Below the pieces are notes generated by a model that made no database searches, was not told where the DNA came from, and saw nothing but the letters and a program-made list of their open reading frames with translations. Positions 9,094 to 36,455 of a stretch of DNA of 64,000 nucleotides are shown in pieces (within the stretch, counting starts at the first letter, position 1; each line of letters starts with the position of its first letter). The DNA comes from Cyanobium sp. Tous-M-B4 (GTDB lineage: Bacteria > Cyanobacteriota > Cyanobacteriia > PCC-6307 > Cyanobiaceae), in the NCBI RefSeq assembly GCF_024345395.1, contig NZ_JAGQBA010000006.1, positions 62,001-126,000 on the forward strand. The letters are read 5' to 3'. Position numbers and translations under genes: made by a program.

Positions 9094-9197
9094 CTTCTAA
9101 GTTTAACTCGCTTCGGCTGCCTAGTGTTGATCGATGATGCCACAGCATCCACTGTCGCTCGTCGACTGATTTTGTTTTTACCGGTTTTCTCTGTTCG

Positions 9198-9206
9198 TGT
9201 TATTAT
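9198..9206 (+). promoter_or_regulatory. candidate extended -10 promoter for rfbF
   Basis: TGTTATTAT is an extended -10 element (TGn followed by TATTAT) about 20 bases before the rfbF ATG, in the only sizeable gap of this strand run. No good -35 is seen at 17 bases, so the call rests on the -10 alone. Confidence 0.3.
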
Positions 9207-9226
9207 CGCAAGAGCACTATTTTTTC

Positions 9227-19743: not shown

Positions 19744-20574
19744 CTACAGGTCCCAGGTATTCAGAGGCTTGTCCATGTAGGCCAGCATCTGTTCGGCATC
19801 GGGCCGCACCACCCCCAGCACCTGGCTGCGCAGCTTGTCCGTCCAGGCGGGAGCCGCCACCATGGCTCTGCCCTTGTCACCGGCTTCGTTTACCCGTGGT
19901 AGCTCGCCATCATCAAGCAGCAGATCTAAATGCTCGGGGTCTGTTGAAGCTCCCAGGAAATTCAATAGAACTGTAAGTGTGGGGCGAGGTGCTGCGATCA
20001 GATCTTCGAAAGTAAGACAGTGGATCTGGTCGTCAGGATAAAATTTGCGAAAGGCTTGCAGGCGTTCGTGATATAGAGAACAGCCCACCACTAGGCGACG
20101 CAGGTGGCCAGAATTCATCAAACCACTGAAATCACGGGTGCCAGGTTGGCGCCCCTTGCGATGGCGCCACTGGGATACGATTCTATCGAGTGGATGGCGT
20201 ACCACATACACCAATTTCAGATTGGGTAGATAGCGGTGCATCAGTGCTGGAGCGTTGGTAGAGCTCTTGAGTGCGCTGGCGTACATGGTGCTACCTTCGC
20301 CGCGCAATTTGCAGGCCTTGCCAGCTTTAAAAAGACGGCCATACCATTTCCAGCCCATGTCGTAGCGCCGACCAAAGAATTTTGGCTCTTTCGGTTTGCT
20401 GATGAAGAAGTCGGGGTGGCGAGGCAGTATTGAAGTGAGTGTTGTTGTGGCAGATTTTGCCGCTCCAATAATGATGAAATTTGGCAATCTGCGGCCCAGT
20501 GCTTGCACTTCGGCCTCGTGTTCGCCCCGTAATCCGGCCTCAATTACTTTTCGCAATTGACGGTTGAGGCCCAA
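19744..20574 (-). CDS. heparan-sulfate-type sulfotransferase domain protein
   Basis: 276 residues, closer to the PF00685/heparan sulfotransferase type than its neighbours. The 5'-phosphosulfate loop is GAAKSATT (37-44), followed by KPKEPKFF (60-67), a family hallmark, and the 3'-phosphate motif RHPLDRIVSQ (126-135). No signal anchor is visible, so it is cytosolic, unlike the eukaryotic Golgi enzymes. ATG start. It lies 61 bases after the next sulfotransferase gene upstream and three before the following one. A sulfated surface sugar is the likely product. Confidence 0.85.
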   Translation of the reverse strand: MGLNRQLRKVIEAGLRGEHEAEVQALGRRLPNFIIIGAAKSATTTLTSILPRHPDFFISKPKEPKFFGRRYDMGWKWYGRLFKAGKACKLRGEGSTMYASALKSSTNAPALMHRYLPNLKLVYVVRHPLDRIVSQWRHRKGRQPGTRDFSGLMNSGHLRRLVVGCSLYHERLQAFRKFYPDDQIHCLTFEDLIAAPRPTLTVLLNFLGASTDPEHLDLLLDDGELPRVNEAGDKGRAMVAAPAWTDKLRSQVLGVVRPDAEQMLAYMDKPLNTWDL

Positions 20575-20635: not shown

Positions 20636-21412
20636 TCAGGCGGGCAGCATCGCTGTGATGCGTTCCAAGGGGGTTGGTGTCACGCTGAGCTGGCCTCGGG
20701 CAAGTTTATACAAGTCGTGATCGCCGTAAAATAGCTCCACGTCCTCTCGGTAGCGCTCTCTAGCGAGGCTGATCAGGTTTTCGTCGCTGAAGTGGGCGGT
20801 AAGGTCAGTCTCGCCAGCTCTGCGCACGTTTTTACTGGGTAACTTGCCAAGTGCTGGCAAACCAGCTTGACGCATGCGACGGCGTAGCAGCTGCCAATGG
20901 TCTGCCATTGCTTCCATTTGGCCTATGAATCCAGGCACCGGCACACCGTCTATGCAAAGAATGCTGCTTTGGGGGAGTAGGTGTACGTCTAAATCAGCAT
21001 CTGCTGTGGCGACCACCACCTCCAGAAAGCGTCGAAACGGCATATGACGCTCCAGCCCCATTCGTTGCATCGCAGTCGACAACGTGTCGTTTTCGATCAG
21101 CTTGTTGTTATAGGCCGACACCAAGCGATCGAAGGGGTTGCGCACGAAGCTGAAGCAGAAGTGGCTGCTACGTCGTTGCATAGCCTCCATCGCGTCGACC
21201 ATCGTGGTTTCGCCATGAGTTCCCTTGCGCCAGAGGGCATCGGCGGTGGTGCGGTAGCCCTCCTCTGGCGGTTGATCAAGCAGTCGGGTAAGCGCGGCCT
21301 TAACTGACGAATTGGCCACCTTGGGCACCCGCCCATAAATCAGCGGCAATTGTTGGAAAAGGATGAAGTGCTCATCCACTGCCGCCGGCATCGCAGGGTT
21401 GGCGGCCGTCAT
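20636..21412 (-). CDS. sulfotransferase family 2-type protein
   Basis: 258 residues from an ATG overlapping the stop of the NeuB-like gene by four bases; the frame is open to 21475, but that would run into the upstream gene. YGRVPKVANSS (PAPS loop PKVANSS, 30-36) and FSFVRNPFDRLVSAYNNKL (3'-phosphate site about 91-101) are characteristic of the PF03567 group that includes HNK-1, chondroitin and dermatan sulfotransferases. Coupling to the nonulosonate synthase gene suggests the acid sugar or its neighbour is the acceptor, which is inference. Confidence 0.8.
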   Translation of the reverse strand: MTAANPAMPAAVDEHFILFQQLPLIYGRVPKVANSSVKAALTRLLDQPPEEGYRTTADALWRKGTHGETTMVDAMEAMQRRSSHFCFSFVRNPFDRLVSAYNNKLIENDTLSTAMQRMGLERHMPFRRFLEVVVATADADLDVHLLPQSSILCIDGVPVPGFIGQMEAMADHWQLLRRRMRQAGLPALGKLPSKNVRRAGETDLTAHFSDENLISLARERYREDVELFYGDHDLYKLARGQLSVTPTPLERITAMLPA

Positions 21413-23694
21413 GCTGCTACCAAATTGGGACCTACAGCTAGTTGATGCTGTTCCAGTCTCTCTAGGGCCAGCCAAGCCCCTTCCCCATTGTTTTTGTGTC
21501 CCTGCCAGATTTCCGGAATGAAGGAGGCTGTCGGAGCCATCTGGCGCAGCAGATTAAAAACATTTGCCCAGTCGATATCACCCTCATCTATTTGCAGGCC
21601 CTCTCCATCTACTCCGCTGGAGTCGGCTAGGTGCAAGTGAGCTGTTAGAGGCAGAATTCGCTCTAGGAAACTGGAGAAGGGCTGGTGTAGATGGTTGCAG
21701 GCAAGCTTGGAATGGGAAACATCCAGGCATACCCTTAGACCATGATTTCGGCAGAAGCTTTCGATGCAATCCGCATCGACAAATAGGTTGTGATATCGCT
21801 GGCCGCCGAAGTGCCAGGGAAACGGTGGCATGGTTTGGGGAATGATCTCCACTCCGTCGCAGTGCAATTCGCGCAGACTGGTCGCTAGTTTGTCTAGGAG
21901 CGGCAGTCTTTCCTGGCTGCTGAGATGGCGGTTCGCAGAGAAGCCCCCCACATTTGTCACCAGCAATACTTCGCCTGGGCACTCAAAGCGTTTACTCAGC
22001 CGGGCGGAGAGGTCGAGCACCCGCTGCAGTTCCGTCACTGAATGGCGTCGATAGTCTTCGTCTTGGCTGCAAAGGTCGAGGGTGTGGTCACCGGTGAATA
22101 GCTCAGGTGCGTGTATCACCAACCCCATTGGCACCCGTTTTGGTAGCACTGCGTCGATATCTACCTCCACATCTTTGTAGCTGAGATGTATTTCCACGAG
22201 GTCAAGGTTGCTGGCACCTTGGAACGCTTCGAGGTCGTGGTACCTCACTGGCACACCAAAGGGATTAGCGAAGCTGTAGGGCCTCGGGGTGGCTGCCGCG
22301 CGTTTCAGGTCGGATTCGAAGAAGCATTCGCCCTCGGCTTTATCACTGCTGATGCTCTGGCCTATTAGGTCGTTGAGCCGATAGGGCTGCAGTCCCTGTC
22401 CCGGACTCTGAATCCGCACCATCTCGCGGCTGATCGGAGTACCAGCTGCGATCGGACAGGCAGCCACCAGGCTCTTAGCCAGTACCTCCCGATTCATCAG
22501 CTCGCCCTGGCTGATGCTGCGGGGGGATTCCGAGCCCATCGACTCCTCCACCGCCCGAATCCCAGCCACCATGGCCGTGAACTCCTCGGGCAGCAGACTC
22601 ACTTTGTGGTCGTTGCCCTCCATCCCTTGGTCGAGGGTGATGTGCTTTTCGATCACTGCCGCCCCGAGAGATACGGCTGCGATTGGTACGGCAAAACCCC
22701 GCTCGTGGCCCGAGTACCCCACCGGCGCCTCAGCCAGCTCCGCTAGCCGCCGCAGATAGCGCAGGTTGACATCTTTGAAAGGGGTGGGATAGGTCGAGTT
22801 GCAGTGCAGCAGCGCGAAGGCAGCTCCCTGCTGACGCAGGTGACGAATGCCGGCACTGATTTCGAGCTCGGTGGCCATGCCGGTGGAGGCAATCAACGGC
22901 TTGCCAGTGGCGGCGATGGCACTGAGCAGATCGTGGTTGGTGAAGTCGGCCGAGGCCACCTTGTATCCCGGCATGCCCCAGCTATCGAGCTTCTCCAGGC
23001 TCGTGGTGTCCCAAGGGGTGCAGAGCGGGATCAACCCCTGGCTCAGGGTGTGATCGAAGCAGCGGAACAGGTCATCGTCGCTGAGCTGGAAACGCTCCAG
23101 TAGATCCAGGGTGTACTGGGTTCCCAGGTCTGAGGCCATGTCGTTGCTGTCGCCCGCGTTGACATACAGCTGGTTCATGTCACGCATCTGGAACTTGGCG
23201 CAGTCCGCACCGGCAGTGGCTGCTGCGTCAATCAGCTGTAGGGCGATCTCCAGGCTGCCGTTGTGGTTGTTGCCGATTTCCGCGATCAGAAATGAAGGGG
23301 CGCCCTCACCGATCGGTCGGCCTGCTAGCAGAAGCTGCCGCTGACCGCCTCGGGCCACTGCCACCACCCTGCCGTGGTCATCGAGCAGGGGGATGACCTG
23401 GATCTTCTGGGAGAAAAGGGCCGCCAAGTCGGCTGCTGCGCTGGCTTCGGCTGCTGCCACGCAATCTGGATTCATGGCATCGGTGACCGGCCTGTTCAGG
23501 TCAATCACGTCGCTTGCCGCGATCCAGCGGCGGAAGTCGCCATCGCTGAGCACCCCTTGGAGAATGCCTGCTTCTGACACCACAAAGATCAGCCGGCATT
23601 TGTTGGCCGTGATCTTGTTCAGTGCCGTCAGGATCGCGTCTTCGGCGAAGACGACGAACTGGGTGAAATTCCGCTCGATCTGAACCGATTGCAC
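21409..23694 (-). CDS. neuB-like: multidomain NeuB-like nonulosonate synthase
   Basis: 761 residues in four modules: two CBS repeats (about 10-118), a NeuB/SpsE TIM barrel (133-385), a SAF/antifreeze-like domain (about 400-465) and a C-terminal xylose-isomerase/AP-endonuclease-type TIM barrel (about 470-750, with EIHLSYKD, HAPELF, CLDVSHSKLA and PEIWQGHKNNGEG). The NeuB core shows FLIAEIGNNHNGS, KFQMRD, YSGHERG and IEKHITLD, as expected for condensing phosphoenolpyruvate with an aminosugar to a sialic-acid-like nonulosonic acid. The CBS pair could bind a nucleotide and regulate the enzyme. The last module's function is unknown; isomerase or epimerase activity on the sugar precursor is possible. 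GTG start. CMP activation is supplied by the neuA gene of the same run. Confidence 0.88.
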   Translation of the reverse strand: MQSVQIERNFTQFVVFAEDAILTALNKITANKCRLIFVVSEAGILQGVLSDGDFRRWIAASDVIDLNRPVTDAMNPDCVAAAEASAAADLAALFSQKIQVIPLLDDHGRVVAVARGGQRQLLLAGRPIGEGAPSFLIAEIGNNHNGSLEIALQLIDAAATAGADCAKFQMRDMNQLYVNAGDSNDMASDLGTQYTLDLLERFQLSDDDLFRCFDHTLSQGLIPLCTPWDTTSLEKLDSWGMPGYKVASADFTNHDLLSAIAATGKPLIASTGMATELEISAGIRHLRQQGAAFALLHCNSTYPTPFKDVNLRYLRRLAELAEAPVGYSGHERGFAVPIAAVSLGAAVIEKHITLDQGMEGNDHKVSLLPEEFTAMVAGIRAVEESMGSESPRSISQGELMNREVLAKSLVAACPIAAGTPISREMVRIQSPGQGLQPYRLNDLIGQSISSDKAEGECFFESDLKRAAATPRPYSFANPFGVPVRYHDLEAFQGASNLDLVEIHLSYKDVEVDIDAVLPKRVPMGLVIHAPELFTGDHTLDLCSQDEDYRRHSVTELQRVLDLSARLSKRFECPGEVLLVTNVGGFSANRHLSSQERLPLLDKLATSLRELHCDGVEIIPQTMPPFPWHFGGQRYHNLFVDADCIESFCRNHGLRVCLDVSHSKLACNHLHQPFSSFLERILPLTAHLHLADSSGVDGEGLQIDEGDIDWANVFNLLRQMAPTASFIPEIWQGHKNNGEGAWLALERLEQHQLAVGPNLVAA

Positions 23695-23727: not shown

Positions 23728-25038
23728 CTAGAGCCGGAACCGGGGGGTAACCAGTAAGGCCAGACGGCGCAGCCAGCGGTTGCTCTGTTGCAGTGCTGCC
23801 AGTCGGCGACTGATATTGCGGTTGTCCGGCCGCTGTAGCAGCGCAACTTCGAGCAGCCGCCGGGCTTCCCCATAGTCTCGGCAGCGTATGGCGGCCTCGG
23901 CTCCACGCCGTAGCTGGTTTGTGGAGAGGTCGGCGGCATTAACTACATAACCAGGATGGTTCAGGTTTAGAAGGCTGTTCTGCGAGTTGTGCCCCAGTTG
24001 CTTCAAGGCCTGCAGCAGGTTGGCTGGGGTGAAATCGGTGTGATACCCAACCCAATGCAACCAGTCGGGATCCGGATCGGGGCCCCCATCCAGGCTGTCG
24101 AGATCCTCTGCCGTTGCCAGGGATCGCAGTAGGCCTGAGCCGGCAAAAAACGGCGTGCCGAGGTCGTGACGTAAGCCAAAATCGTTCACGACCACCGGTC
24201 TGCAGCCCAGGTCGAGGGCGTCGAACAGGGCGGTTGACGACACGGTGGCCAGCAGCCGGCTGTTCAACAGCAGTTCCGCAAGGGGTTCGTAGCTGAGCCG
24301 CAGGTTGGCTGGAGGGCTGCCCAGGGTTTCCACCAGGGTGTGGCTGATATGGCTTTCGACCGTGTGAAACGTCGTTTCATGGGGGGCGACCCGCGGTTTG
24401 ATCACCACCTCCCATTCGGGTGAGCGGCGGGCCAGCCGCGTCAAAATACGGATTAGGTGTCTCCGCTCAGAGACGGCCGCTGGCATCACAACCTGTTCGG
24501 CGAACACCAGCCTTTTTGGTCGCTCCCCGCGCTCCCGCACTGGAAGGTTGCGGCCTAGGCCAGTGAGCACGCTGCGCTGCTGTTGAAAGGGGGTGTGGCG
24601 CAGCAGCAGATCCAGGCGGGCCTGGTCACGCGGGCCATTAAGGCAGATCAGGTCGTAACCCAACCTCCAGGCAATTGCTTCCTCGAAGCGCTCCAGCACC
24701 ACCCCGTTGAAGCCACAGAACAGGGGACGAGCTTGGCGCTTCTGCTGCAGGCAGTTGCGGTGGTAGCAGCTGCGGAATTCGGCCAACTTGCTGCCAGTGA
24801 GATACACCCCGATCGCGTCGAATTGGTCGAGCCGTCGATCTGCCAGCAGAGCCTGGGCATTCAGCCTCCACACCGTTCCGATCAGTTCCAGTCCCTGGAG
24901 CACGCCTTCCGGGGTCCCATCGCGCGGAATGGCGTTCACCGTGATTGTTGCCCCGTTTGCGTTGCTGAAGCGAGCCAAGGCCTGGCAAGCCAGTAGCTGG
25001 CTGTCGCTGTCCGCAATCAGCAGGATCTGGAGGGTCAT
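23728..25038 (-). CDS. putative glycosyltransferase resembling DUF6716, paralogue 1
   Basis: 436 residues from an ATG overlapping the upstream TGA (25035-25038). It starts MTLQILLIADSDSQLLACQ, has VVIKPRVAPHETTFHTVESH and the TVSSTALFDALDLGCRPVVV stretch followed by FFAGSGLL, all matching my recollection of the DUF6716 putative glycosyltransferases (GT-B-like, no confirmed substrate). A C-terminal 110-residue extension has a tetratricopeptide-like pair of helices and a basic end. It sits between a second paralogue and the NeuB gene, so it may transfer a nonulosonate. The family name is from memory; the kinship to the two upstream genes is seen directly. Confidence 0.65.
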   Translation of the reverse strand: MTLQILLIADSDSQLLACQALARFSNANGATITVNAIPRDGTPEGVLQGLELIGTVWRLNAQALLADRRLDQFDAIGVYLTGSKLAEFRSCYHRNCLQQKRQARPLFCGFNGVVLERFEEAIAWRLGYDLICLNGPRDQARLDLLLRHTPFQQQRSVLTGLGRNLPVRERGERPKRLVFAEQVVMPAAVSERRHLIRILTRLARRSPEWEVVIKPRVAPHETTFHTVESHISHTLVETLGSPPANLRLSYEPLAELLLNSRLLATVSSTALFDALDLGCRPVVVNDFGLRHDLGTPFFAGSGLLRSLATAEDLDSLDGGPDPDPDWLHWVGYHTDFTPANLLQALKQLGHNSQNSLLNLNHPGYVVNAADLSTNQLRRGAEAAIRCRDYGEARRLLEVALLQRPDNRNISRRLAALQQSNRWLRRLALLVTPRFRL

Positions 25039-26063
25039 GGCCGCGGCTCCACCAGCTGCTTCAGCCGCCGCAGTAGCCGTTGGGGGCCATTGGCGATGGC
25101 CCAGCCCCGATCTGCCAACCATTGGCGATTGGGCCGCTTCAGCTTGGCGAGTCGATCCAAGGGCACACAGTCGGCAAGTTGATGCATGGCACCAGAGCCG
25201 AAGAACAGCGGTCCGTTGAAGTCGGTGCGGATGCCGTAGTCACCGAGCACCACGGTTGGCTTACCCCACACCATGGCCGTGAGCAGCCAGGGAGAGGCGA
25301 TGCCAAGGCAGGCGCTGGCCTGGACCAGGGCAATGGCCAGGTCATCAACCTGGCCGAGTTGAAGGTTGCTTGGGGGGTGCAGATCCTGCTGGAAGTGCCA
25401 GGCCAGGGAAGTTGAGGGCTCCTGCGCCCCCTCAGTCCCCAAGGGTGCATCGGGCTGTATGCGGATCTGCCAGGAGGGGCAGTCCAGGGCGATCGTGCGC
25501 AAGCGTTGAAACAAGACACCGTTGGCAAAAGGGGAAGGGGGGATGTCTTGCTGATCAAGCACCAGCAGCAGTGGTGCTTGGCTGTTGGCGTGGCCCACCG
25601 GCTCGGTTGGCAGGCACCAAAGGCCAATGGCCTCGCTGGCCTGGGATGCGCTTTCGCTGCCGCGCACCAGCCAGGCCAGTTCCTGCATCTGAGCCTTGCC
25701 CTGCAGGCAAATCAGGTCGTAGCCCAGGCGGGGCAGCAGGTCTGCCATCAAGGTGTCCCCATACAAGGGGCGAATTGGGCCCGTAAATAAGGGGCAAGGC
25801 CGCTTCCCCCTCAACCGAGCCGACTCCAAATGCACCTGCCGGAATTGGGTCAGCTGGGCCCCCTCTAGAAACACGCCAACAGCGTCAAGCCCATTGAGAA
25901 GGTCGCTGCTGGCGGCAACTAGAGGCTGCAGGGGTAACCAGTGCTGATCGCTGGCTTCGGGACTGATCAGAGTCACCTCCGCTCCCAACAATCTCAGTTC
26001 CGCCGCGAGTAGCTGGCAGGCTCCCAGTCCGGGCTCTCCGTCGCAAACCAGTGCCAGTTTCAT
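25035..26063 (-). CDS. putative glycosyltransferase resembling DUF6716, paralogue 2
   Basis: 342 residues, the shortest of the trio. It keeps the layout: KLALVCDGEPGLGACQ at the N-terminus, DAVGVFLEGAQLTQFR (compare DAIGVYLTGSKLAEFR in paralogue 1), RLGYDLICLQG, and PTVVLGDYGIRTDFNGPLFFGSGA. The KPR-E-T motif of the middle region is replaced by RIQPDAPLGTE and the serine-rich SST loop by ASPWLLTAM, so residues likely to matter for catalysis differ. It may be an inactive partner or have another donor. ATG starts overlapping the previous stop; the end overlaps paralogue 1 by four bases. Confidence 0.6.
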   Translation of the reverse strand: MKLALVCDGEPGLGACQLLAAELRLLGAEVTLISPEASDQHWLPLQPLVAASSDLLNGLDAVGVFLEGAQLTQFRQVHLESARLRGKRPCPLFTGPIRPLYGDTLMADLLPRLGYDLICLQGKAQMQELAWLVRGSESASQASEAIGLWCLPTEPVGHANSQAPLLLVLDQQDIPPSPFANGVLFQRLRTIALDCPSWQIRIQPDAPLGTEGAQEPSTSLAWHFQQDLHPPSNLQLGQVDDLAIALVQASACLGIASPWLLTAMVWGKPTVVLGDYGIRTDFNGPLFFGSGAMHQLADCVPLDRLAKLKRPNRQWLADRGWAIANGPQRLLRRLKQLVEPRP

Positions 26064-27361
26064 CGGCCCTTAAAAAGCCGCTCCAGTCCCCAGAGACCTA
26101 CCACCCTCTGGCGTGCCCGTCGCAGCAGATTCCGTCCGCGATGACTCGCCACTAGTCGGGAGCGGGCGCCGGCAGAGCTCAGCATTTTCTTACCCCCTTT
26201 TGCCAGGGCGTAGGTCTGCCAGGAATTACTACCCCAGCCCGGGGGACCTTCCCTATCTGCCGACTCGGAAGACTGGGGCGGATTTATCAGTCGGCTGGCC
26301 AGGGCAGCAATAAAAACCTGGTCACCTCCAGGAATGTGACCATGGCCCTCCGGCCAGGCCTGATCGAGGCGGAGGCTGAAGGGGTCTCGAATGATTGAGT
26401 CGAAATCGGCGATGGCTGCCGATTCAAGAAAGTAATGATTGCCCAAGGTTTCATTGACTCCCAGGTCCGAGACAATGCGGGTGCTCACACCCAAAGCCAT
26501 TGCTTCCATGGCAGCGGTGGAGGACACAGTGATGGCGCAGCCGCACTTTTTCAGCAGAGTCAGGCTGGGCTTGTAGCTGATCTGCAGGTTGGGTATGCGG
26601 CGGCTGAGCTTCTCAACCCGGCTGGCCATCTCACCATGCTGGCGATGCAGCGTGGCTTCGATTTTCGAGGTGCGTGGCTTAAAGATCACCGGATGTGCCG
26701 GCCAGGCCTGGGCCAGATCGGCAAGGCGCCTACAAATGTATTTGCGTTGAATCGGGTTGTCAGGCACTGAGGGCTGCTCGAAAAACACGATCGAGGCGGC
26801 ATCCGGTACTTGGAGTCTTGGTTCGATCGACCAGAGGATCGGCAGTCCAGTCACAACAGCATTGCTGCTGTCCAGCCCTAGGGCACTGCAGGCCTGACGA
26901 TAAAGCTGGGCGTCGGTTTCTCCGTTTAGGCACAACAGTTCTACGCCGGAGCGATCCATCATTCCCTCCAGTTGATGGCGGAACAGAATGCCCGGATAGG
27001 CGCTAATCAGTACGGGCCGCCGGAGCTGATCCATCCAGGCCGATTGCAGCAACAGCTGGGTCTCTCGGGTGCGGCGTCCATCCAAACCGAGCACAAGGGC
27101 ATCGACTTGTACAAGATCGGTGCGCAGCTCTCGCAGTTGGCCCCACTCGTGCTGCTTGATGGCGGTGCGGGGATCTATGCGGCGGATCTCCAGCACCTGG
27201 CGGCGTGAGAGTTTGCGTCCAGGCAGTTCAAGCAGATGCAGGCTCGTCGATGCTCCTTCCTTCCGCGCCACGCGCAGCAGGTTCATGGCGGTTTTGCCGA
27301 AGGAGTCGAAGCAGGCCAGGGCTGCCACCTGGCGCCCCTGCAGGCTGCCCATCAATTGCAT
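26060..27361 (-). CDS. putative glycosyltransferase resembling DUF6716, paralogue 3
   Basis: 433 residues. Shared family segments are VAALACFDSFGKTAMNLLRV, VIFKPRTSKIEATLHRQHGE, NLQISYKPSLTLLKKCG and ITVSSTAAMEAMALGVSTRI, then NHYFLESAAI. It is closest to paralogue 1 in having both the KPR-x3-E and SSTA motifs, so it is probably active. The C-terminal 60 residues are strongly basic. The ATG at 27361 overlaps neuA by ten bases; an ATG three codons later (27352) would give a one-base overlap and is equally possible. Confidence 0.62.
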   Translation of the reverse strand: MQLMGSLQGRQVAALACFDSFGKTAMNLLRVARKEGASTSLHLLELPGRKLSRRQVLEIRRIDPRTAIKQHEWGQLRELRTDLVQVDALVLGLDGRRTRETQLLLQSAWMDQLRRPVLISAYPGILFRHQLEGMMDRSGVELLCLNGETDAQLYRQACSALGLDSSNAVVTGLPILWSIEPRLQVPDAASIVFFEQPSVPDNPIQRKYICRRLADLAQAWPAHPVIFKPRTSKIEATLHRQHGEMASRVEKLSRRIPNLQISYKPSLTLLKKCGCAITVSSTAAMEAMALGVSTRIVSDLGVNETLGNHYFLESAAIADFDSIIRDPFSLRLDQAWPEGHGHIPGGDQVFIAALASRLINPPQSSESADREGPPGWGSNSWQTYALAKGGKKMLSSAGARSRLVASHRGRNLLRRARQRVVGLWGLERLFKGR

Positions 27362-28113
27362 TCCGATGAAGTGTGTTCCGATGAAGCTTGATTGGCCCCA
27401 TTCAACAGGGGCGCTAATCGATCGCAGAGCTCAAGGTCTTGCATGCTGTCTATCTCAGGGGCTAACCCTTCCAGGGGTACGGGCAGGGTGGGCTGGATGA
27501 ACCGGGTTCCGTGTTCCAGAAACGCTTTGGTACGAATTGCGTAAATGGCACCGGTCTCTAGATACGCGGGCTCCAAGTCCTGGCGCCGGCGGCGGGGTTC
27601 GTTGGAGTTGTGATTAATTCCTACCCCGTGGCCATTGCCATCGATGCACCACAAGAAGCCGTGCCATGGCATCACGCTGAAAGCCATGTTGGCCTGGCTG
27701 AGTTGAAGGGCGTTCACCACAGCATCAATCTGGGGCCCAGTGGTGAAGGGCGAAGTGCACTGCAGAAAAACAAACAGGGCGGGCAGAGGGCCGCGCTCTG
27801 CTAGTTCGTTGAGGGCGTGGAGCAGGGCCAATTCTGATGATGCTTGGTCGCCCGAGAGCTCACTTGGTCTCTGCAGCCAACTAGCACCCTCCTCTTCGCC
27901 AAGGTGGCCGATGCCGGCATCGTCGCTGCTCACCCAGATGGCTCCGACGCTCGAAGCTACCCTGGCGGCCCTTATGCAGCGTGCAAGCAAGGGAATCCCG
28001 CCAACGGAGCGAAGATTTTTGCCGGGAACCCCTTTGGAGCCCCCGCGCGCAGGAATCAAAACAAGCGGAGCCAGATCTGGATCCATTTGGATCGCCAAGG
28101 CAGGAGGACTCAT
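27352..28113 (-). CDS. neuA: CMP-nonulosonate (N-acylneuraminate) cytidylyltransferase
   Basis: 253 residues. It activates a sialic-acid-like sugar with CTP. The mononucleotide-binding motif PARGGSKGVPGKN is at 21-33, followed by WVSSDDAGI, LQRPSELSGDQ and FLQCTSPFTTGPQID, all typical of the NeuA/KdsB-like family. KdsB is less likely because of the GGSKG-PGKN form and the NeuB gene in the same run; whether the sugar is neuraminic, legionaminic or another nonulosonate cannot be told. The ATG overlaps the upstream small ORF by four bases and is preceded by an inverted repeat (CCAGCG-4-CGCTGG, 28114-28129). Confidence 0.88.
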   Translation of the reverse strand: MSPPALAIQMDPDLAPLVLIPARGGSKGVPGKNLRSVGGIPLLARCIRAARVASSVGAIWVSSDDAGIGHLGEEEGASWLQRPSELSGDQASSELALLHALNELAERGPLPALFVFLQCTSPFTTGPQIDAVVNALQLSQANMAFSVMPWHGFLWCIDGNGHGVGINHNSNEPRRRRQDLEPAYLETGAIYAIRTKAFLEHGTRFIQPTLPVPLEGLAPEIDSMQDLELCDRLAPLLNGANQASSEHTSSECN

Positions 28114-28388: not shown

Positions 28389-28480
28389 CTGTCGGTACCT
28401 TGGTTAAAGGGAATCCGTAGCGCCACCCGCCTTTGGTCTATCCATCCTCCGCAGTTCGACTGGGCCTGCCGGATGCAGGA

Positions 28481-30433
28481 ATGTTCCGTCACGCAACCTT
28501 GAAGGCCCTGCTGGCTCCTTTCAGCTTGGTGCGCGGTTCGGGTCGTTGCGGTCGTGAGCAGTTGGATGCCCTGCTGGCCTGGGGACGCAAGCCCAGCGCT
28601 CGAGCTGCTGAGCGGCTGGCTGTCGCCCGTGATCTACCCATTTGGCGATGTGAAGATGCCTTTGTTCGTTCCCTGGGTTTGGGAGCAGACTGCCCGCCTC
28701 TTGGTCTGGTCCTAGATGATTTAGGGATCTACTACGACGTCTCAGAACCCAGCCGTCTTGAGCAGCTGATTGCCCGTAATCACAGCCCTGACGAGCTGGC
28801 GCGTGCGATCAAGCTGCAGCGCCTCTGGCGCGAGCACCGAGTCAGCAAGTACAACCAATCAGCCGATGTACCGGCACCTGTTCAGCCCTACGTACTTGTG
28901 GTTGACCAAACCGTTGCCGATATTTCGATACGACTGGGTTCAGGTTCTCAAGATCAGTTTGCCGCCATGTTGGCCGCGGCGCTTAGAAATCATCCTGGTC
29001 TCAAAGTGGTGGTCAAAACCCACCCCGATGTGGTCGCTGGCAGAAAGAAGGGACATTTTACGGCCGAACAACTAGCCGATTCACGCATAATTTTAGACTC
29101 TAGTGGTGGTCATCCCGCGGCTCTGCTTGAGCAAGCCGAGGCTGTGTATGTGGTGACTTCCCAGCTGGGCTTTGAAGCCTTGATGTGGGGGAAGGAGGTC
29201 TACTGCTTCGGACTTCCTTTCTTCGCTGGCTGGGGACTAACCCATGATGAGCTGCCTTCGCCGCCTCGACGGGCTTCCGCAGGCCAGCGACAGCTGGCTG
29301 ATCTTGTGCATGCAGCTTTGGTCGAGTATGCAGTTTATATCGATCCTCATACTCTTAAGCCCTGCGAAGTTGAAGATCTACTGTGTTCGATTGGCTTGCA
29401 ACGTCAGAGATTGGCTGCCGATCCCGCCCGGGCTGTGGCGCTTGGCTTTACACGCTGGAAAAGACCCTTCTTGCGGCGCTTTATGCCTGGTTGCGAGTTG
29501 TCTTTTTTGCGCTCACGCGAGCGGCAACGCCATAGGCGGATTGTGCACTGGGGCCGGGCTTCTGAGCAGCTTTTGTTGGCCCATCCTGGTCAAGTAATTC
29601 AGGTTGAAGATGGCTTTCTGCGTTCAGTTGGATTTGGCAATAAGATTCATTTGCGAATAGTTCAGCTACTTAATAATGTTGGGATCAGGGCTGCTCGTCC
29701 CCCCAGCCCTTTGTCATGGGTGGTAGACCACCAGGGTGTCTATTACGACTCCACCCGTCCTTCAGCGTTGGAAAGCTGGCTTGCGACTGCTGATCCCAGT
29801 ATTGAGCAGCTCGAACGGGCCGCTGCCCTGCGCCAGCGTCTAGTTCAAGAGGCAATTACTAAATATAATCTTTCGGCTCCAGCTTGGCATAGGCCATCAG
29901 GCTTGCGGCGGGTAGTGCTGGTGCCAGGCCAGGTAGAAAGTGATGCTTCAATTCGTTTTGGGGCGCCAGGAATAAGAACCAACTTAGAGCTGATTCAAGC
30001 CGTGCGCAATGCGGAGCCAGATGCATATATTATTTATAAGCCCCATCCCGACGTAGTCGCGGGGTTGCGTCGATCTTCGGTTGCTGAAAGTCAAGCCTTG
30101 TTGGTTGCTGATTTGGTGCTAAGAGAAGCTTCTGTGCAGCAATTATTTGCTCAAGTAGATGCGGTTCACGTGCTCACCTCTTTGGCCGGATTCGAAGCTC
30201 TGCTGCGAGGCATAGAGGTCCATGTTTGGGGGCTTCCCTTCTACGCCGGCTGGGGGCTTACCAAGGACGCAAACAGTTGCTCTCGTCGAGGGAGAAAGAT
30301 TAGTCTAGATGCCCTTGTGTATGGGGCATTAATAGCTTACCCGCGCTACGTCAGTCGTCGCAGCGGCTGGCAGATCACCCCGGAGCAGGCTATCGACGAG
30401 CTGGTGGCATGGCGCGCATCTTCTACTGCTTAA
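28481..30433 (+). CDS. kpsC: KpsC-type capsule beta-Kdo transferase homologue
   Basis: 650 residues made of two related halves, the known layout of KpsC, which with KpsS builds the Kdo linker on a phosphatidylglycerol-type lipid in group 2 capsules. Repeat 1 has CEDAFVRSLGLG (58-69), VVVKTHPDVVAG (176-187) and CFGLPFFAGWGLT (242-254). Repeat 2 (about 335-640) has VEDGFLRSVGFG, YKPHPDVVAGLRR and VWGLPFYAGWGLT. The ATG at 28481 is preferred; the frame is open to a TTG at 28433. Divergent from the nonulosonate operon, with promoters expected in 28389-28480. AT-richer than the housekeeping genes. A Kdo requirement implies kdsA/kdsB elsewhere. Confidence 0.88.
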   Translation: MFRHATLKALLAPFSLVRGSGRCGREQLDALLAWGRKPSARAAERLAVARDLPIWRCEDAFVRSLGLGADCPPLGLVLDDLGIYYDVSEPSRLEQLIARNHSPDELARAIKLQRLWREHRVSKYNQSADVPAPVQPYVLVVDQTVADISIRLGSGSQDQFAAMLAAALRNHPGLKVVVKTHPDVVAGRKKGHFTAEQLADSRIILDSSGGHPAALLEQAEAVYVVTSQLGFEALMWGKEVYCFGLPFFAGWGLTHDELPSPPRRASAGQRQLADLVHAALVEYAVYIDPHTLKPCEVEDLLCSIGLQRQRLAADPARAVALGFTRWKRPFLRRFMPGCELSFLRSRERQRHRRIVHWGRASEQLLLAHPGQVIQVEDGFLRSVGFGNKIHLRIVQLLNNVGIRAARPPSPLSWVVDHQGVYYDSTRPSALESWLATADPSIEQLERAAALRQRLVQEAITKYNLSAPAWHRPSGLRRVVLVPGQVESDASIRFGAPGIRTNLELIQAVRNAEPDAYIIYKPHPDVVAGLRRSSVAESQALLVADLVLREASVQQLFAQVDAVHVLTSLAGFEALLRGIEVHVWGLPFYAGWGLTKDANSCSRRGRKISLDALVYGALIAYPRYVSRRSGWQITPEQAIDELVAWRASSTA

Positions 30434-30500: not shown

Positions 30501-32534
30501 TTGAACTCTTCCAGGCCTGCGACCTTGGTTCAAGTACAGATTAATGGCCCTGTGTTGCTGTTGATCGGCCCGATTGGTCTGTTCTTTGCACGCTTCTGTA
30601 ACTACCTCCGCGGCTGTGGTATTCCAGTAGTCAAGGTGGCGTTTCCCCTGCATGAATTTGGTTTTGCGCGAGATGTGCGCGTGCCATTCAATGGCTCAAT
30701 GGAGGAGTGGCGCCCCTTTTTGCGCCAGCTGCTGGTGGAGAGAGGAATACGCCACATCTTTATGTATGGAGATTTTATAATTCCCCATCGCGTCGCAATT
30801 GAGGAGGCTCAGCGCATTGGCGTTGAGGCTTGGGTGTTTGAACTCGGCTATATCAGGCCTAATTACGTAAGCTTGGAGCGGGATAGGGTGAACTCCCGCT
30901 CTAACCTAAATCAACCACTTGAATTTTATAGGGCCCTGCCGCCTGTAAATGTCTTGCCTGGTGGTTGTCTGGAGCCAGGTTGGAGGTGGCGCAAGATTTG
31001 GAAGGCTCCAACTTTCCTTCAGCATGCTTTCACTCGTTATCCGATTATCGAGGGTGAGCACAAGTTGCAACCCTCGCCTCAGTTTGTCTGGTGCCAGCTG
31101 CGCGGTAATTGGCGTTTCTGGCTTTATAGATTTAGTGAGCGTTCGATCAAGAGGAGGCTGCTTGAACATCTCTCCTTCTTCTTGGTTGTGCTTCAGGTCT
31201 CTAGTGATTCGCAGATCCAGATGGGCTCGCCCTATCGGGGCATGCATGATTTTATTGAGGATGTAATCAGTTCGTTTGCTGCGAACGCCCATGCCTCTGA
31301 TCACCTTGCCTTTAAGCATCATCCACGTGATCGTGGATATAATCATTACGGTAGGCTCATTCAGCTTTTAGCCACCCGTTATGGAGTCTCCGGACGTGTG
31401 CATTATTTTCACGATGGAGCCTTGAGTCGTTTTCTGCGTGCCTGCAGGGGCGTTGTAACGGTCAACAGTACGGTTGGTTTGCAGGCCTTGTTTCATGCTG
31501 TGCCTACAAAGGTTATGGGGCAAACTTTTTATAATTTACCTGGCCTTACTGATCAAAAGCCTCTGGATCAATTCTGGCAGCAGCCCCAGACTAGTGATCG
31601 GCCACTCTTTTATCGCTTTTACTCCCACCTTGTCACTAGCACTCAGGTTAATGGCAATTTTGATGGCGATTTCCCCTTTCGGACTACTTTCCCCATAGGT
31701 CCAGATGCTCGCCGGTTAGCGCCTTCTCCCCAGCTGCCAGATGCCCCCGTGCCCAGTCGCAGATCCGGCGTGATCCTGCTGCCTCGTCTGCTAGGCCGTT
31801 TGGGCTGGGCTGCAGGGTTTTTTGCGATTTATGGCTTGCAGTTACTGGCACTTGCTTTGGGCTTTAAGCGTGCTGCTTCCTGGTTGCTTGCTTGTACAGC
31901 TGGGGCGGGACTAAGGGCTCTTGGTGTACAGGTGGTCCTTGATGACAGCCAGCCCAGCGAGCCAGTTGGTGTGCCCTTGGTTCATATCTGGAATCACACA
32001 AGCCCGATAGATGTGCTGGTGGTGCAAGGGGTGATCAGGTTGCCAAGTATCACAACTGCCAACCTGCACATGAGCCACTTCATGCCTTGGTTTGCCCAGT
32101 CGGCTGCTAATGCGGGCCATGCGCTGATGAATCATAAAGATGGGCGATCGCGCACTGCTGCTTTATATGCTGCCTCCCGCACGCTGGCGGAACGGGGACA
32201 GGTGATCCTGGCGCCCAATGGTTCATTGGTTACGCCAATACATCAGAGAGTTTCGGCGAGCCCCTTACTGCTAGCCCGTCGTCATAGTGCCCTTGTTGTG
32301 CCATGGACCTTTGTGCAGGAAGGATTGCCGAGTCCTGAAGACTTGCGCTATCGCCCCCTTAGATTGCTGCTGTCAAGACTTACAGCTCCGATTGGCACCA
32401 TTTATTGCCGGCGAGGGCGTGCCAGGGATCTGCTGCTGCCTGAATCAAACTGTGACGTCGGCAGCTTTAAGGCAGCGGTGCAGGCTTATTACGCCCGCAC
32501 CACTAACCTTCCCAGTAGAACTGATAAGGGGTGA
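30501..32534 (+). CDS. kpsS-like: KpsS homologue fused to a PlsC-like acyltransferase
   Basis: 677 residues. Residues 15-400 are KpsS-like: LLIGPIGLFFARFCNYL, FELGYIRPNYVSLE (113-126), AFKHHPRDRG (270-279) and GVVTVNSTVGLQAL (317-330). After a proline-rich linker comes a hydrophobic stretch (about 433-467) and a 1-acylglycerol-phosphate-type acyltransferase domain with the H-x4-D motif in NHTSPID (His499, Asp504), a GHALMNHKDGRS block and PNGS (572-575) in the usual EGT-like position. KpsS of capsule systems lacks this domain as far as I know. The fusion suggests that acylation of the lipid acceptor is coupled to linker synthesis. TTG start with AAGGGA about seven bases before it. Its TGA abuts the opposite-strand stop within TGATCA. 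Confidence 0.82.
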   Translation: MNSSRPATLVQVQINGPVLLLIGPIGLFFARFCNYLRGCGIPVVKVAFPLHEFGFARDVRVPFNGSMEEWRPFLRQLLVERGIRHIFMYGDFIIPHRVAIEEAQRIGVEAWVFELGYIRPNYVSLERDRVNSRSNLNQPLEFYRALPPVNVLPGGCLEPGWRWRKIWKAPTFLQHAFTRYPIIEGEHKLQPSPQFVWCQLRGNWRFWLYRFSERSIKRRLLEHLSFFLVVLQVSSDSQIQMGSPYRGMHDFIEDVISSFAANAHASDHLAFKHHPRDRGYNHYGRLIQLLATRYGVSGRVHYFHDGALSRFLRACRGVVTVNSTVGLQALFHAVPTKVMGQTFYNLPGLTDQKPLDQFWQQPQTSDRPLFYRFYSHLVTSTQVNGNFDGDFPFRTTFPIGPDARRLAPSPQLPDAPVPSRRSGVILLPRLLGRLGWAAGFFAIYGLQLLALALGFKRAASWLLACTAGAGLRALGVQVVLDDSQPSEPVGVPLVHIWNHTSPIDVLVVQGVIRLPSITTANLHMSHFMPWFAQSAANAGHALMNHKDGRSRTAALYAASRTLAERGQVILAPNGSLVTPIHQRVSASPLLLARRHSALVVPWTFVQEGLPSPEDLRYRPLRLLLSRLTAPIGTIYCRRGRARDLLLPESNCDVGSFKAAVQAYYARTTNLPSRTDKG

Positions 32535-33785
32535 TCAGGCCGCCAGGATCAGGCTGATGTTGTGGCCGCCGAAGCCGAAGGCATTCTTGAGGGCATAGCG
32601 CTCGCTGTTACGGCTTGGCAGTGCTAGCGACTCCTGTTGAACCACTGCAAGATTTATGGCTGGATCGAGAGGGTTTGAGTTCAGGCTGCGCGGCACTATT
32701 CCTTGACGCAAAGCTTGCAGGGCAAGGATCGTTTCCACTGCGCCTGCAGCTCCGAGTAGGTGTCCAAACTGGCCCTTAGGCGCTGTTACGGGCATGTGGT
32801 CTAGGGCATTGCCTAGGCCGCGGCGCAGGGCTCGCGACTCTGCCAGGTCTCCCACTGGTGTGCCCGTGGCGTGAGCCTGAACGAAGCTGAGGTCCGCCAC
32901 TGTCAGATCCGCCCGTTGCAGGGCATCGGCGATCGCTTGGCTTGCTTGCAGGCCTTCTGGTTCAGGAGCAACGATGTGGTGACCATCGCTGCTGCAACCG
33001 CAGGCCTGGAGTATTCCCAAGGGAGCAGGTGCTCCGCTGGCTAGGTCCCGCTCCCTTTGCAATACCAATACGCCTGCGCCCTCTGACAGCACGAAACCGT
33101 CCCTGTCCTTGCCATAGGGCCTTGAAGCCTGCTCAGGCTCCTCGTTACGACTAGAGAGGGCCCGCATTGCGGCAAACCCGACCAATCCCAGTCGATTCAC
33201 AGGGGCTTCTGTGCCACCGGCTAAAACCACGTCAGCCCGATTGTCATTGATCAGTAGCTGGGCCAGCAGCAGGGCTTCGGCGCCAGATGCGCAAGCTGAA
33301 ACCGGCGTATGGGCCCCTCCGTGCAGTCCAAGGTCGATCGCAATATGGCTTGCCGCTGCATTTGGTATCAGCATTGGCACGGTCAGGGGGTTCACCCGCG
33401 TCGGGCCCGCATTCAGCAGGATGGTGTGCTGGCGCTCAAGTGTGGCCAGGCCACCGATCCCTGTGCCGATCACAACTGCAATTCGGGCAGGATCTACACC
33501 TGAGAGGTGCGGTGAAGCCTGAGCCCATGCTTGACGGGCTGCTAGAAGGGCCAGCTGGGAACAGCGATCCAGGCGCCGTTGTAGTAAAGGCTCCAAGGTC
33601 TCAATTAGATCTTGCTGTACGCAGCCTGCCAACCTGATCGGCAGGTCTTTCGCCCATTCATCAGCGAGTGCCCTAACTCCGGAGCGTCCAGAGAGAATTG
33701 CTTGCCAAGTGCTTTCGGGGTCGTTCCCTAATGGGTTTATCGAGCCCCAGCCTGTAACCGCCAGCCGTTCAGGTGGCTTGCGCAT
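32535..33785 (-). CDS. FabF-like 3-oxoacyl-ACP synthase
   Basis: 416 residues, a complete beta-ketoacyl-ACP synthase II: active-site Cys165 in VSACASGAE, His304 in QAHATGTPVGD and His341 in GHLLGAAGA, with Lys336 before it. It condenses malonyl-ACP with a growing acyl chain. All catalytic residues are present, so it should be active. It overlaps the acyl carrier protein gene by 17 bases, and neither lies next to fabD, fabG or fabH, so this looks like a second, specialised FabF rather than the housekeeping copy. Context suggests it makes the acyl chain of a glycolipid anchor (inference). ATG start. Confidence 0.9.
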   Translation of the reverse strand: MRKPPERLAVTGWGSINPLGNDPESTWQAILSGRSGVRALADEWAKDLPIRLAGCVQQDLIETLEPLLQRRLDRCSQLALLAARQAWAQASPHLSGVDPARIAVVIGTGIGGLATLERQHTILLNAGPTRVNPLTVPMLIPNAAASHIAIDLGLHGGAHTPVSACASGAEALLLAQLLINDNRADVVLAGGTEAPVNRLGLVGFAAMRALSSRNEEPEQASRPYGKDRDGFVLSEGAGVLVLQRERDLASGAPAPLGILQACGCSSDGHHIVAPEPEGLQASQAIADALQRADLTVADLSFVQAHATGTPVGDLAESRALRRGLGNALDHMPVTAPKGQFGHLLGAAGAVETILALQALRQGIVPRSLNSNPLDPAINLAVVQQESLALPSRNSERYALKNAFGFGGHNISLILAA

Positions 33786-34158
33786 CGGGTTGCTCCATGG
33801 ACCTCAGATGATTCTGAATATCGCCCACCGTTTGGAATTTGAGCAGGTCTTCCTCCCTTATTTTGATGCCGAGGCACTCATCGGCTTCGATCAGAATTTC
33901 GTAGAAGCCAAGGGAGTCAATGCCTATGTCTTCGATCAGGCGGGCCTCTGGGGTGATCCGGGCGGGGTCAGCGCCTGAGATCTGAATCAGAATCTGAGTC
34001 AACCGATCCTGAAGTTCCTCGGGGTTTTGAAGCGAGACTGAAGCAGTTGAATGCCCGGGGTTTGTAGGCAGATTGGCCTCTGAGCTTGGTTGGCGGGAAG
34101 GGTTCGCAGGGCTCAACGGCAGGAGTTCAGTCTGGTCGTTTTCAGGGTTCGCGCGCAT
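33769..34158 (-). CDS. acyl carrier protein with N-terminal extension
   Basis: 129 residues from the ATG at 34158 (a TTG at 34170 would add four). The C-terminal 80 residues are an acyl carrier protein with the phosphopantetheine Ser in DIGIDSLGFYEIL, acidic helix 2 and a closing FQTVGDIQNHL. The first 45 residues are Pro/Ser/Asn-rich and probably disordered, unusual for the roughly 80-residue housekeeping ACP. It overlaps the ketosynthase gene by 17 bases and follows the N-acyltransferase gene by 50, so the three likely form one operon with the ACP as acyl shuttle. Confidence 0.88.
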   Translation of the reverse strand: MRANPENDQTELLPLSPANPSRQPSSEANLPTNPGHSTASVSLQNPEELQDRLTQILIQISGADPARITPEARLIEDIGIDSLGFYEILIEADECLGIKIREEDLLKFQTVGDIQNHLRSMEQPDAQAT

Positions 34159-34208
34159 CGAGGACCCCAAAGCGACTGCATGGAAACGTACCAGCCCAGA
34201 GGGCTGGT

Positions 34209-35192
34209 TCAGCTGCCTCGGTACCAGCTGAAATGCCGGTAGACAGGTTGGTGGACGAAGTCGATGAAGTGCTGTAGCCGGCTGCTGGGGATGCGGCTGA
34301 GGTCGGCAGCCATCAGGATTTCGGTGATTTGATTGAAGTCACGGGCCAGGGAGAGGTTTCGAACCCTGGCTTCCATCAAGTTGATGTACTGGCGGAGCAG
34401 CACGGGCAACCGAAAGCTTGGCTCCAGCTGCTCCCTGATCTGCTGTTCAAGGCCCTGAATGGTCTCGATGGATCCCTGGGCTTCCATTGGTTCAAGCCAG
34501 CTAAGCGAATGGCGGGGCTGGGGACAGGGCAGCTCCGTTTCCAGAAATGGTGCCCGCATCAGGCTGCCTAGAAAGCTTTGGTTGACTGCGTCGCTGTAGG
34601 CAAAATGGTTGTAGGAGACCAGTCCATGGATGGATTGGTAGCCAGAGGAAACTGCCACCTGAAGTCCGCCCCTAAACAGGCACATCAAGGTGTGAGGCTG
34701 GCGCTGGAAGCGGGGCGCAAGAGCTACTCGACCAATTTCCAGGTGATTGCCTCGCTGGGCCAGCATCGTTTTGATGCCTGGATAAACGTGCTCCAGGTAG
34801 GACTGATGGCCTGCTGGAGTTGGCGTCTTGTCACCTGCTTGGCCGCTTTGGCCGAAGTCATGTCTAGGCACGAACTGGAGCCGGGCGGAGCCCGCCAACT
34901 CGCCGCTACAGCCCTCCACCAGTAGGAAATGGTCGTAGAAGCAGTCCCTGCTATCGAGGTCACGGGTCTGCCCCGAGCCAGAAAGTTGTTGGCGGTAGGT
35001 CAGTTCCCGCAGGATGCCTACTGGGTCTGCATAGGGTGCAAAATGTTCACCAGGCAGCAAATAAAGGTCGAGGCCCTGGGAGCTGAACAAAAAGTAAGGG
35101 GCGAGCTCTGCCTCTACCTGCTGAAGAGGAAGGGCTACCGGGGCTGGCTGATTCAAGATGGTCCCTTCCTTCCCCTTCACGCTTGGGCTCAA
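34209..35192 (-). CDS. OlsB-like GNAT N-acyltransferase
   Basis: 327 residues. The layout resembles the acyl-ACP-using N-acyltransferases of the OlsB/hemolysin-like type (PF13444): ILRELTYRQQL followed by a D-rich stretch and DHFLLVEG, then NHLEIGRVALAPRFQRQPHT, the E-(I/L)-GR-x2-L-P-F-R signature, and HGLVSYNHFAYSDA. OlsB acylates ornithine; related enzymes acylate other amines. Here the acceptor is unknown and might be an aminosugar or lipid headgroup of the capsule anchor. TTG start. The C-terminal 90 residues are helical and extend past the usual GNAT core. Divergent from the Wza-type gene, with an 84-base gap. Confidence 0.75.
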   Translation of the reverse strand: MSPSVKGKEGTILNQPAPVALPLQQVEAELAPYFLFSSQGLDLYLLPGEHFAPYADPVGILRELTYRQQLSGSGQTRDLDSRDCFYDHFLLVEGCSGELAGSARLQFVPRHDFGQSGQAGDKTPTPAGHQSYLEHVYPGIKTMLAQRGNHLEIGRVALAPRFQRQPHTLMCLFRGGLQVAVSSGYQSIHGLVSYNHFAYSDAVNQSFLGSLMRAPFLETELPCPQPRHSLSWLEPMEAQGSIETIQGLEQQIREQLEPSFRLPVLLRQYINLMEARVRNLSLARDFNQITEILMAADLSRIPSSRLQHFIDFVHQPVYRHFSWYRGS

Positions 35193-35276: not shown

Positions 35277-36455
35277 TTGCCTGCAGATTTCCATTCCCAA
35301 CCGTCTGCTACCCGCAGGCCCCTGGCCAGGCTGATCGTGGCCACAGCACTGGGTGCCCCATTCAGCTGCCTTGCTGCTCTGGCTCAGCCCCAGCTGCAGT
35401 CTTACCCCATGCCAGGGGCACCAGGAGCTCTGCCGAGCGCCTCTGCTGTGTGGCCAGCGGATCCGGGCAGGAGCTTCCGCTATCGGCTTGGTCCAGGGGA
35501 CCGGTTGCGTATGTCCGTATTCAAGGTTGAAGGCTACGCCGCAGAAGTGGAGATACTCAGCGACGGCACTATCAACTTGCCACGGTTGAACTCAGTGCCC
35601 GTCTCGGGCCTCAGCCTGGATGAAGCTCAGAAACGGATTACAAGCTTGTATTCCCGTTACCTGCGCAGACCTCTAGTCTATCTCGATTTAATTGCTCCCC
35701 GTCCGGTGCGGATCACCGTGGTGGGGGAGGTTCAGAAGCCAGGTTTCTATAGCCTCACCCAGGAGGCCAAGAGTTCCAGCCTCCAGGCTGTCGGCGCCCA
35801 GCAGACCACTATTACAAGCGCTGGTTGGCCCACCTTGGTCGATGCGGTTCAGAAGGCAGGAGGCATTACTGCTACTGCCAATCTCTCTGATGTTGTGCTG
35901 ATCCGTCAGGGAAGCAGGCCTGAATCGCCCAAGACCAGCTTTCGCTTTGATTTTCTAGCTACTCTTTTGGGCCAGTCCCAGACGGTCAATCCCCTGCTGA
36001 TGGATGGGGACACAGTTCAAGTTTCCAAGCTTGAAGGTGTTACTACTAATGAGATTTTGATCAGGGCTGGTAAGTCGAATCTTTCCGCTGATGCCATTGC
36101 CGTTACGGTCGTGGGAGAGGTTAATGTTCCTGGCCTTAAGCAAGTTCGTTCCAATAGCTCGCTTACTGAGGCGGTAATGGCAGCCGGAGACTTAAATCAG
36201 CTGAGAGCCGATGCCAATTTCATTCGCCTGTTGAGGATGCAGAGCGATGGCACAGTTGTTTCAACTCGATTGCGTTTTCAGCCAGGAGCCACACTTGGAT
36301 CAATCAACAATCCTGCTCTGCAGAACGGTGATGTAATTGTTGTAGCTCGTAATGGCTGGACGAGTTTCAATCAGCGTCTTGCCCAAACTGTGGAGCCCCT
36401 TGGTCCCTTGCTGAATGCGGCTTCCCTCTACAACATTTTGGTTAAAGGCCCCTAG
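35277..36455 (+). CDS. Wza-type polysaccharide export protein
   Basis: 392 residues. A hydrophobic segment (about 16-36, ending ALAQ) looks like a Sec signal peptide; Cys31 lies in it without a canonical lipobox. The polysaccharide-export domain starts at YRLGPGDRLRMSV (69-81), and SLBB repeats follow (ITVVGEVQKPGFYSL near 150, and VTVVGEVNVPGLKQV). It should form the outer-membrane channel for the polymer. No Wzc-like kinase, KpsMT or KpsE gene is next to it. TTG start following AGGA by three bases. A short three-base gap to rlmH suggests read-through. Confidence 0.88.
   Translation: MPADFHSQPSATRRPLARLIVATALGAPFSCLAALAQPQLQSYPMPGAPGALPSASAVWPADPGRSFRYRLGPGDRLRMSVFKVEGYAAEVEILSDGTINLPRLNSVPVSGLSLDEAQKRITSLYSRYLRRPLVYLDLIAPRPVRITVVGEVQKPGFYSLTQEAKSSSLQAVGAQQTTITSAGWPTLVDAVQKAGGITATANLSDVVLIRQGSRPESPKTSFRFDFLATLLGQSQTVNPLLMDGDTVQVSKLEGVTTNEILIRAGKSNLSADAIAVTVVGEVNVPGLKQVRSNSSLTEAVMAAGDLNQLRADANFIRLLRMQSDGTVVSTRLRFQPGATLGSINNPALQNGDVIVVARNGWTSFNQRLAQTVEPLGPLLNAASLYNILVKGP

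Follow-up and report, generated by a model that had tools for sequence, protein, structure and literature searches.

The 677-aa open reading frame described here is a true fusion of a KpsS-type beta-Kdo glycosyltransferase and an acyltransferase of the LPLAT/PlsC fold. It lies in a 64,000-nucleotide stretch of Cyanobium sp. Tous-M-B4 (hereafter the window, meaning the whole of the DNA that was analysed), in a capsule locus that also encodes a GNAT-fold N-acyltransferase, a ketosynthase (KAS) and an acyl carrier protein (ACP) (Table 1). Our best explanation, to which we give an even chance, is that this module makes a dedicated N-acyl/O-acyl lipid, to which the fused LPLAT domain would add the second acyl chain and which the KpsS domain would then prime with Kdo. 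A further reading of the locus, held tentatively and at slightly less than even confidence, is that a KpsS/KpsC-type capsule would carry its Kdo linker on such an aminolipid-like anchor and not on phosphatidylglycerol (PG), one polypeptide performing both the final acylation and the initial glycosylation.

Table 1. Coordinates of the fusion gene, its domains and the neighbouring capsule and acyl-chain genes in the window.
Feature	Position	Strand	Basis
KpsS::LPLAT fusion gene	30501..32534	+	TTG start, 677 aa ORF
KpsS-type beta-Kdo glycosyltransferase part	30528..31685, about aa 10-395	+	PF05159, NF050054, structure match
LPLAT/PlsC-like O-acyltransferase part, with N-terminal two-helix element	31758..32504, about aa 420-668	+	PF01553, PlsC 5kym match
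FabF/KAS-like ketosynthase	32535..33785	-	ketoacyl-synt E 1.7e-47, FabF-like
Acyl carrier protein	33769..34170	-	PF00550 E 2e-10; phosphopantetheine serine in GIDSL
GNAT-fold N-acyltransferase, OlsB/FeeM/LuxI type	34209..35192	-	PF13444, OlsF match, fold model
Two-module beta-Kdo transferase KpsC, upstream neighbour of the fusion	28433..30433	+	PF05159, 4 stretches, E 4.1e-86
Wza/KpsD-like outer-membrane polysaccharide export protein	35277..36455	+	Poly_export E 2.5e-19, SLBB
CMP-sugar cytidylyltransferase, PseF/NeuA-like	27352..28113	-	profile matches
Three DUF6716 putative glycosyltransferases	23728-25122, 25035-26063, 26060-27361	-	profile matches
NeuB-type nonulosonate synthase, one protein with CBS, SAF and xylose-isomerase-like domains	21409..23694	-	
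Sulfotransferase-family genes	18661-19740 (below family cut-off), 19744-20574, 20636-21475	-	

Domains of the fusion protein

An earlier note on this DNA had read the gene as KpsS fused to a PlsC-like acyltransferase. Profile searches and structure prediction, run on both halves, bear this out. For the N-terminal half, PF05159 (Capsule_synth) matched residues 86-387 (E 1.7e-56) at 192 bits, above its curated cut-off of 20. The NCBIfam KpsS model (NF050054) aligned over nearly its whole length (13-387 of 390, E 2.7e-81) at 273.9 bits, which falls below its equivalog cut-off of 600. An AlphaFold2 model was built from 23 homologues (mean pLDDT 78.9, pTM 0.53; model residue numbers are ORF residue numbers minus 8), and VIA-align 2 superposed its residues 9-392 on the Kdo transferase WbbB (Z 13.7) and on KpsC (Z 13.1). 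The KpsS motifs FKHHPRDR (271-278) and NSTVGLQAL (322-330) lie at the residues given in the earlier note, and within them KHHPRD (272-277) and NSTVGLQ (322-328) are invariant in the alignments. The half also contains a QXXXD motif (Q232-V-S-S-D236), whose Q and D are invariant in 23 sequences; two beta-Kdo transferases, KpsC and WbbB, have their covalent nucleophile in this motif (PMC10148158). By profile and model, the N-terminal half is a KpsS-type beta-Kdo transferase domain, which would transfer Kdo from CMP-Kdo to a lipid.

The C-terminal half matched PF01553 (Acyltransferase, E 1.4e-5) at 25.3 bits, above the curated cut-off of 23, while TIGR00530 (AGP acyltransferase) gave a weak 19.2 bits and missed its cut-off of 102.95. 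Searched against the PDB, a profile of the domain had Thermotoga PlsC (5kym, E 5.5e-5) as its sole match. The same structure was matched by model residues 413-668 using VIA-align 2 (Z 15.8, rmsd 4.2, 230 of 241 residues), and PatA was also among the structure matches (Z 11.3). An NHx4D motif is present (N498-H499...D504, NHTSPID from 498), as is P572-N573-G574-S575-L576; the N, H and D of the first and the P-x-G-S-L of the second do not vary across an alignment of 24 sequences, made up of 23 fusions plus a single separate copy. The H-x4-D (His499, Asp504) and PNGS (572-575) that had been picked out from the letters alone are in place. Motif III is P[NS]GSL as against the classical FPEGT, with N or S where Glu is usual, which places the domain in the LPLAT superfamily but as no canonical PlsC. 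Two predicted helices open this part of the protein (model residues 411-444 and 448-465) and account for the hydrophobic stretch previously remarked on upstream of the domain. On these grounds, the C-terminal half is an LPLAT/PlsC-fold domain with an intact HX4D, a putative acyltransferase with a predicted substrate that is discussed below; the lack of any acyltransferase match, which the earlier note had named as a refutation of its reading, was not observed.

Each half is thus backed by its profile hits, its part of the AlphaFold model and its structural relatives (WbbB and KpsC for the first, Thermotoga PlsC for the second), and both Pfam families were matched by 23/23 homologous fusions, PF01553 at E up to 0.01. 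As the full-length pTM is modest, the mutual placement of the two halves is not fixed by the model.

Neighbouring acyl-chain and capsule genes

The ketosynthase gene is convergent with the fusion, with abutting stop codons, and the two genes end on adjacent bases. Its Cys-His-His motifs are conserved (ACASGAEA, AHATGT and GHLLGAAG), as is the DSL serine motif of the ACP. For the GNAT, PF13444 was found in 23/23 homologues, and the best NCBIfam match was to the C-terminal half of OlsF (E 1.1e-11), at 44 bits versus an equivalog cut-off of 620. Searching PDB sequences with the GNAT profile was unhelpful, as it returned irrelevant matches only, so a fold model (pLDDT 90) was used. The best structure matches of this model were LasI, BjaI and FeeM (Z 13.0-13.7), which couple an amine to acyl-ACP or acyl-CoA. 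Generic GNATs scored only about 1 Z below these LuxI/FeeM-type enzymes, so the fold alone leaves the substrate of the GNAT unfixed; that it could use another acceptor counts against our best explanation.

The GNAT was found in 26/201 genomes, including all 23 with the fusion. The other three are all drafts: in G032 it is the domain joined to KpsS that is degenerate, while the relevant contigs of G074 and G159 stop short of the full region. The GNAT adjoins the fusion in all fusion loci with enough contig on that side. The KAS and ACP, by contrast, are absent from a subset of loci that keep both GNAT and fusion (L046, L049, L068, L069, L073, L075, L076, L077 and L080; L046 and L074 are one contig). 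The GNAT and KpsS::LPLAT thus form the constant pair. Pairwise protein distances across the same loci, with kinship ignored, correlated with those of KpsS at 0.97 for the GNAT and 0.95 each for the KAS and ACP; the other neighbours, which served as an internal comparison, gave 0.72 (KpsC), 0.73 (PurB), 0.50 (Wza) and 0.23 (GlnB). This linkage and co-variation lie within one clade and partly reflect block-wise common descent. In two loci (L043 and L044), the KpsC match is on the strand opposite the fusion, unlike in the window, with the order fusion-KAS-ACP-GNAT the same.

KpsC was found in the fusion loci whose contig covers that side. KdsA is present in 23/23 fusion genomes (93/201 overall), and in the window's genome a KdsB above its cut-off lies about 0.6 kb from KdsA, apart from the PseF/NeuA-like gene, which probably serves a nonulosonate of the capsule. 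The window's contig also has, at a distance of about 50 kb, matches to KpsM (E 8e-27) and to the KpsE family (E 2e-45), both below their curated cut-offs, and a weak match to a KpsT-like ABC-transporter ATPase. The genome has the group 2-like capsule set of KpsC, KpsM, KpsE and a KpsD/Wza-type protein, and the whole gene set fits an ABC-transporter capsule that is probably acidic, sulfated and nonulosonate-containing. The window also holds a tandem pair of 430-aa paralogues that contain DRL_cat and SAF domains (11114-12406 and 12425-13717, minus strand).

The candidate lipid anchor, its alternatives and natural exceptions

The GNAT of OlsB/FeeM type, with its KAS and ACP, did not figure in the earlier note. 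It is the strongest contextual evidence and points to a purpose-built N-acyl/O-acyl acceptor. In the aminolipid route, a PF13444 N-acyltransferase makes a lyso-lipid from 3-hydroxyacyl-ACP and an LPLAT-family O-acyltransferase then adds the second chain (PMC11631085). Considering that some loci keep GNAT and fusion without KAS and ACP, the minimal pair would be the same as in OlsB/OlsA, an N-acyltransferase and an LPLAT. The GNAT, fed by acyl-ACP and in most genomes supplied by its own KAS and ACP, would make an N-acyl lipid with one chain on the inner side of the plasma membrane. Its two-helix element would hold the fused LPLAT domain to the membrane, where the domain would put a second acyl chain on a hydroxyl of this lipid, and the KpsS domain of the same polypeptide would move the first beta-Kdo from CMP-Kdo onto the head group of the finished product; the fusion would favour the priming of nothing but the completed two-chain lipid. 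KpsC would lengthen the Kdo linker, the capsule glycosyltransferases would build the chain (probably sulfated and nonulosonate-containing), and an exporter of KpsM, KpsT-like, KpsE and KpsD-like proteins would take the capsule out. The head group would have to hold a Kdo-receiving hydroxyl, as one of the N-acylated Ser/Thr/Tyr- or serinol-like kind would. We infer the chemistry throughout, including the substrates, the order of the steps and the head-group hydroxyl.

The earlier note had held that the fusion ties linker synthesis to acylation of the acceptor lipid, with lyso-PG as the lipid to assay. The coupling is plausible, while lyso-PG as the acceptor is unproven and is not the best fit given the adjacent GNAT, KAS and ACP. 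Were the LPLAT domain to acylate lyso-PG or another lyso-phospholipid, KpsS would prime diacyl PG, and the GNAT, KAS and ACP would serve another capsule step or a separate lipid. This would agree with (lyso)PG as the known KpsS acceptor (PMC10148158, PMC7694667) and with PlsC, a lysophosphatidate acyltransferase, as the nearest solved structure to the domain. However, it gives no account of an N-acyltransferase, often with KAS and ACP, that accompanies and co-varies with KpsS, and in E. coli a monofunctional KpsS is enough for a capsule built on (lyso)PG (PMC10148158). We consider this, the main alternative, unlikely.

Somewhat harder to credit is that the two acyltransferases decorate the glycan, with N-acylation of a nonulosonate or amino sugar by the GNAT, and O-acylation of Kdo or another sugar near the reducing end by the LPLAT domain, to give an acylated glycolipid. 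Related LPLAT-superfamily enzymes, such as the PatA matched above, do acylate glycolipids, the locus encodes a nonulosonate synthase, and the anchor of the Vi capsule is an acylated sugar (PMC12220298). Against this, the enzymes nearest to the GNAT in profile and fold act on amino acids or SAM together with acyl-ACP or acyl-CoA, and the fusion partner of the LPLAT domain is KpsS, which initiates, and not a later glycosyltransferase, so that glycan decoration appears quite improbable.

The C-terminal domain was found in 23/201 sampled genomes of the same family, always in long open frames, and the KpsS matches in complete contexts of this sample all bear the C-terminal extension. In a sample of 292 genomes from the phylum, strong matches to the domain were confined to the same family, with only two weak ones outside the picocyanobacteria (E 1e-4 to 7e-4), and no KpsS relatives were found outside the window's family at the sensitivity used. 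A wider contig scan, run once with the motif [AHF]P[NS]GSL[VKL]T[PS]I and hence limited to LPLATs bearing it, yielded 25 named loci, 7 of which equal a contig of the family sample in length, so that the two sets overlap. Of these loci, 24 are from Cyanobium, Vulcanococcus, Synechococcus and unclassified cyanobacterial records; the last is from a MAG labelled Bifidobacterium breve (L073), in which the cyanobacterial module is probably contamination. A phage origin was considered using blastn against a phage collection, which returned no match.

Several loci depart from the common form. Both NHx4D and P[NS]GSL are gone from the fused LPLAT domain of L070 (Synechococcus BS301-5m-G53), and an intact separate LPLAT gene directly follows the degenerate fusion (6753-8927, then 8854-9702). 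In G089, one extra LPLAT copy of 270 aa, separate and intact (L039:8759-9556), adjoins an intact fusion, with about 43% identity between them. Judging from these sequences, L070 and G089 would fit selection for acyltransferase activity at this locus. In G032, KpsS has a degenerate C-terminal domain without catalytic motifs (L095:7747-9627), with GNAT, ACP and KAS retained; a separate member of this LPLAT family was looked for in that genome and not found, so the acyl step is not universal. If the domain served KpsS chiefly by anchoring it to the membrane or by binding lipid, with catalysis secondary or lost, the hydrophobic helices at its N-terminal end would be explained, as would the G032 and L070 fusions, which lose the catalytic motifs while the rest of the domain stays. 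We regard this as very unlikely, because an anchor would need neither NHx4D nor P[NS]GSL, both of which are kept without change in 23 fusions and in one separate copy, and because the decayed fused copy of L070 has an intact one next door. With the same fold pair as in the aminolipid route and with the rkp-1 and Vi systems as precedents, an N-acyl/O-acyl acceptor is preferred over lyso-PG, glycan acylation and anchoring.

The joining of two genes by a sequencing, assembly or frame error, which the earlier note had named as what could undo its reading, was looked for and is ruled out for practical purposes, with nothing found in its favour: the ORF is also whole in the window's own assembly (G000:C6:92501-94531), with no internal stops, and independent assemblies, some of them single-contig genomes, show the same open architecture in 23 genomes and in 25 named loci.

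Significance and comparison with known systems

The lipid end of KpsS/KpsC capsules has been described as a conserved (lyso)PG terminus, to which the fusion loci would be an exception if our best explanation is true. The locus suggests that a lineage of tiny cyanobacteria builds a custom lipid anchor for its capsule. For freshwater and marine picocyanobacteria, this would be a capsule anchor of a kind that has not been reported elsewhere; a literature search, mostly without subscription journals, found no KpsS-acyltransferase fusion and no aminolipid capsule anchor. A KpsS with its own acyltransferase and a linked N-acyltransferase would show that the acceptor is replaceable, and the fusion lineage would give a genetic handle on lipid recognition by KpsS.

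Compared with E. coli KpsS, the initiator of group 2 capsules, the window protein shares the domain family, the QXXXD motif, a gene position beside a two-module KpsC, and a genome with Kdo-synthesis and KpsM/KpsE-type export genes. It differs in its C-terminal LPLAT domain, its score of 274 out of the 600 bits of the KpsS cut-off, and its GNAT, KAS and ACP neighbours. With PlsC/LPLAT enzymes (1-acylglycerol-3-phosphate acyltransferase), the C-terminal domain has the fold, the N-terminal helix pair and NHx4D in common, but it is fused to a glycosyltransferase, carries P[NS]GSL for FPEGT and falls below the TIGR00530 cut-off. The pairing of an acyl-ACP-type PF13444 GNAT N-acyltransferase with a PF01553 O-acyltransferase is that of OlsB/OlsA; unlike in OlsB/OlsA and OlsF, the O-acyltransferase of the window is fused to a Kdo transferase in a capsule locus, and the GNAT is below the OlsF cut-off.

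In rhizobia, RkpJ is a KpsS-like protein that is not known to be fused. The rkp-1 region (rkpA, rkpGHIJ) is likewise a capsule locus, and some of its genes are proposed to make and modify a lipid dedicated to carrying or anchoring the capsule (PMC3557214, PMC4881576), although its lipid enzymes are different and form a fatty-acid-synthase-like cluster. Finally, the Vi capsule of Salmonella Typhi (VexE), another capsule of the ABC-transporter type, has a lipid anchor that is not PG (PMC12220298), as is proposed here. It has neither KpsS nor KpsC and uses a diacyl-HexNAc anchor, whereas the window's genome keeps both KpsS and KpsC.
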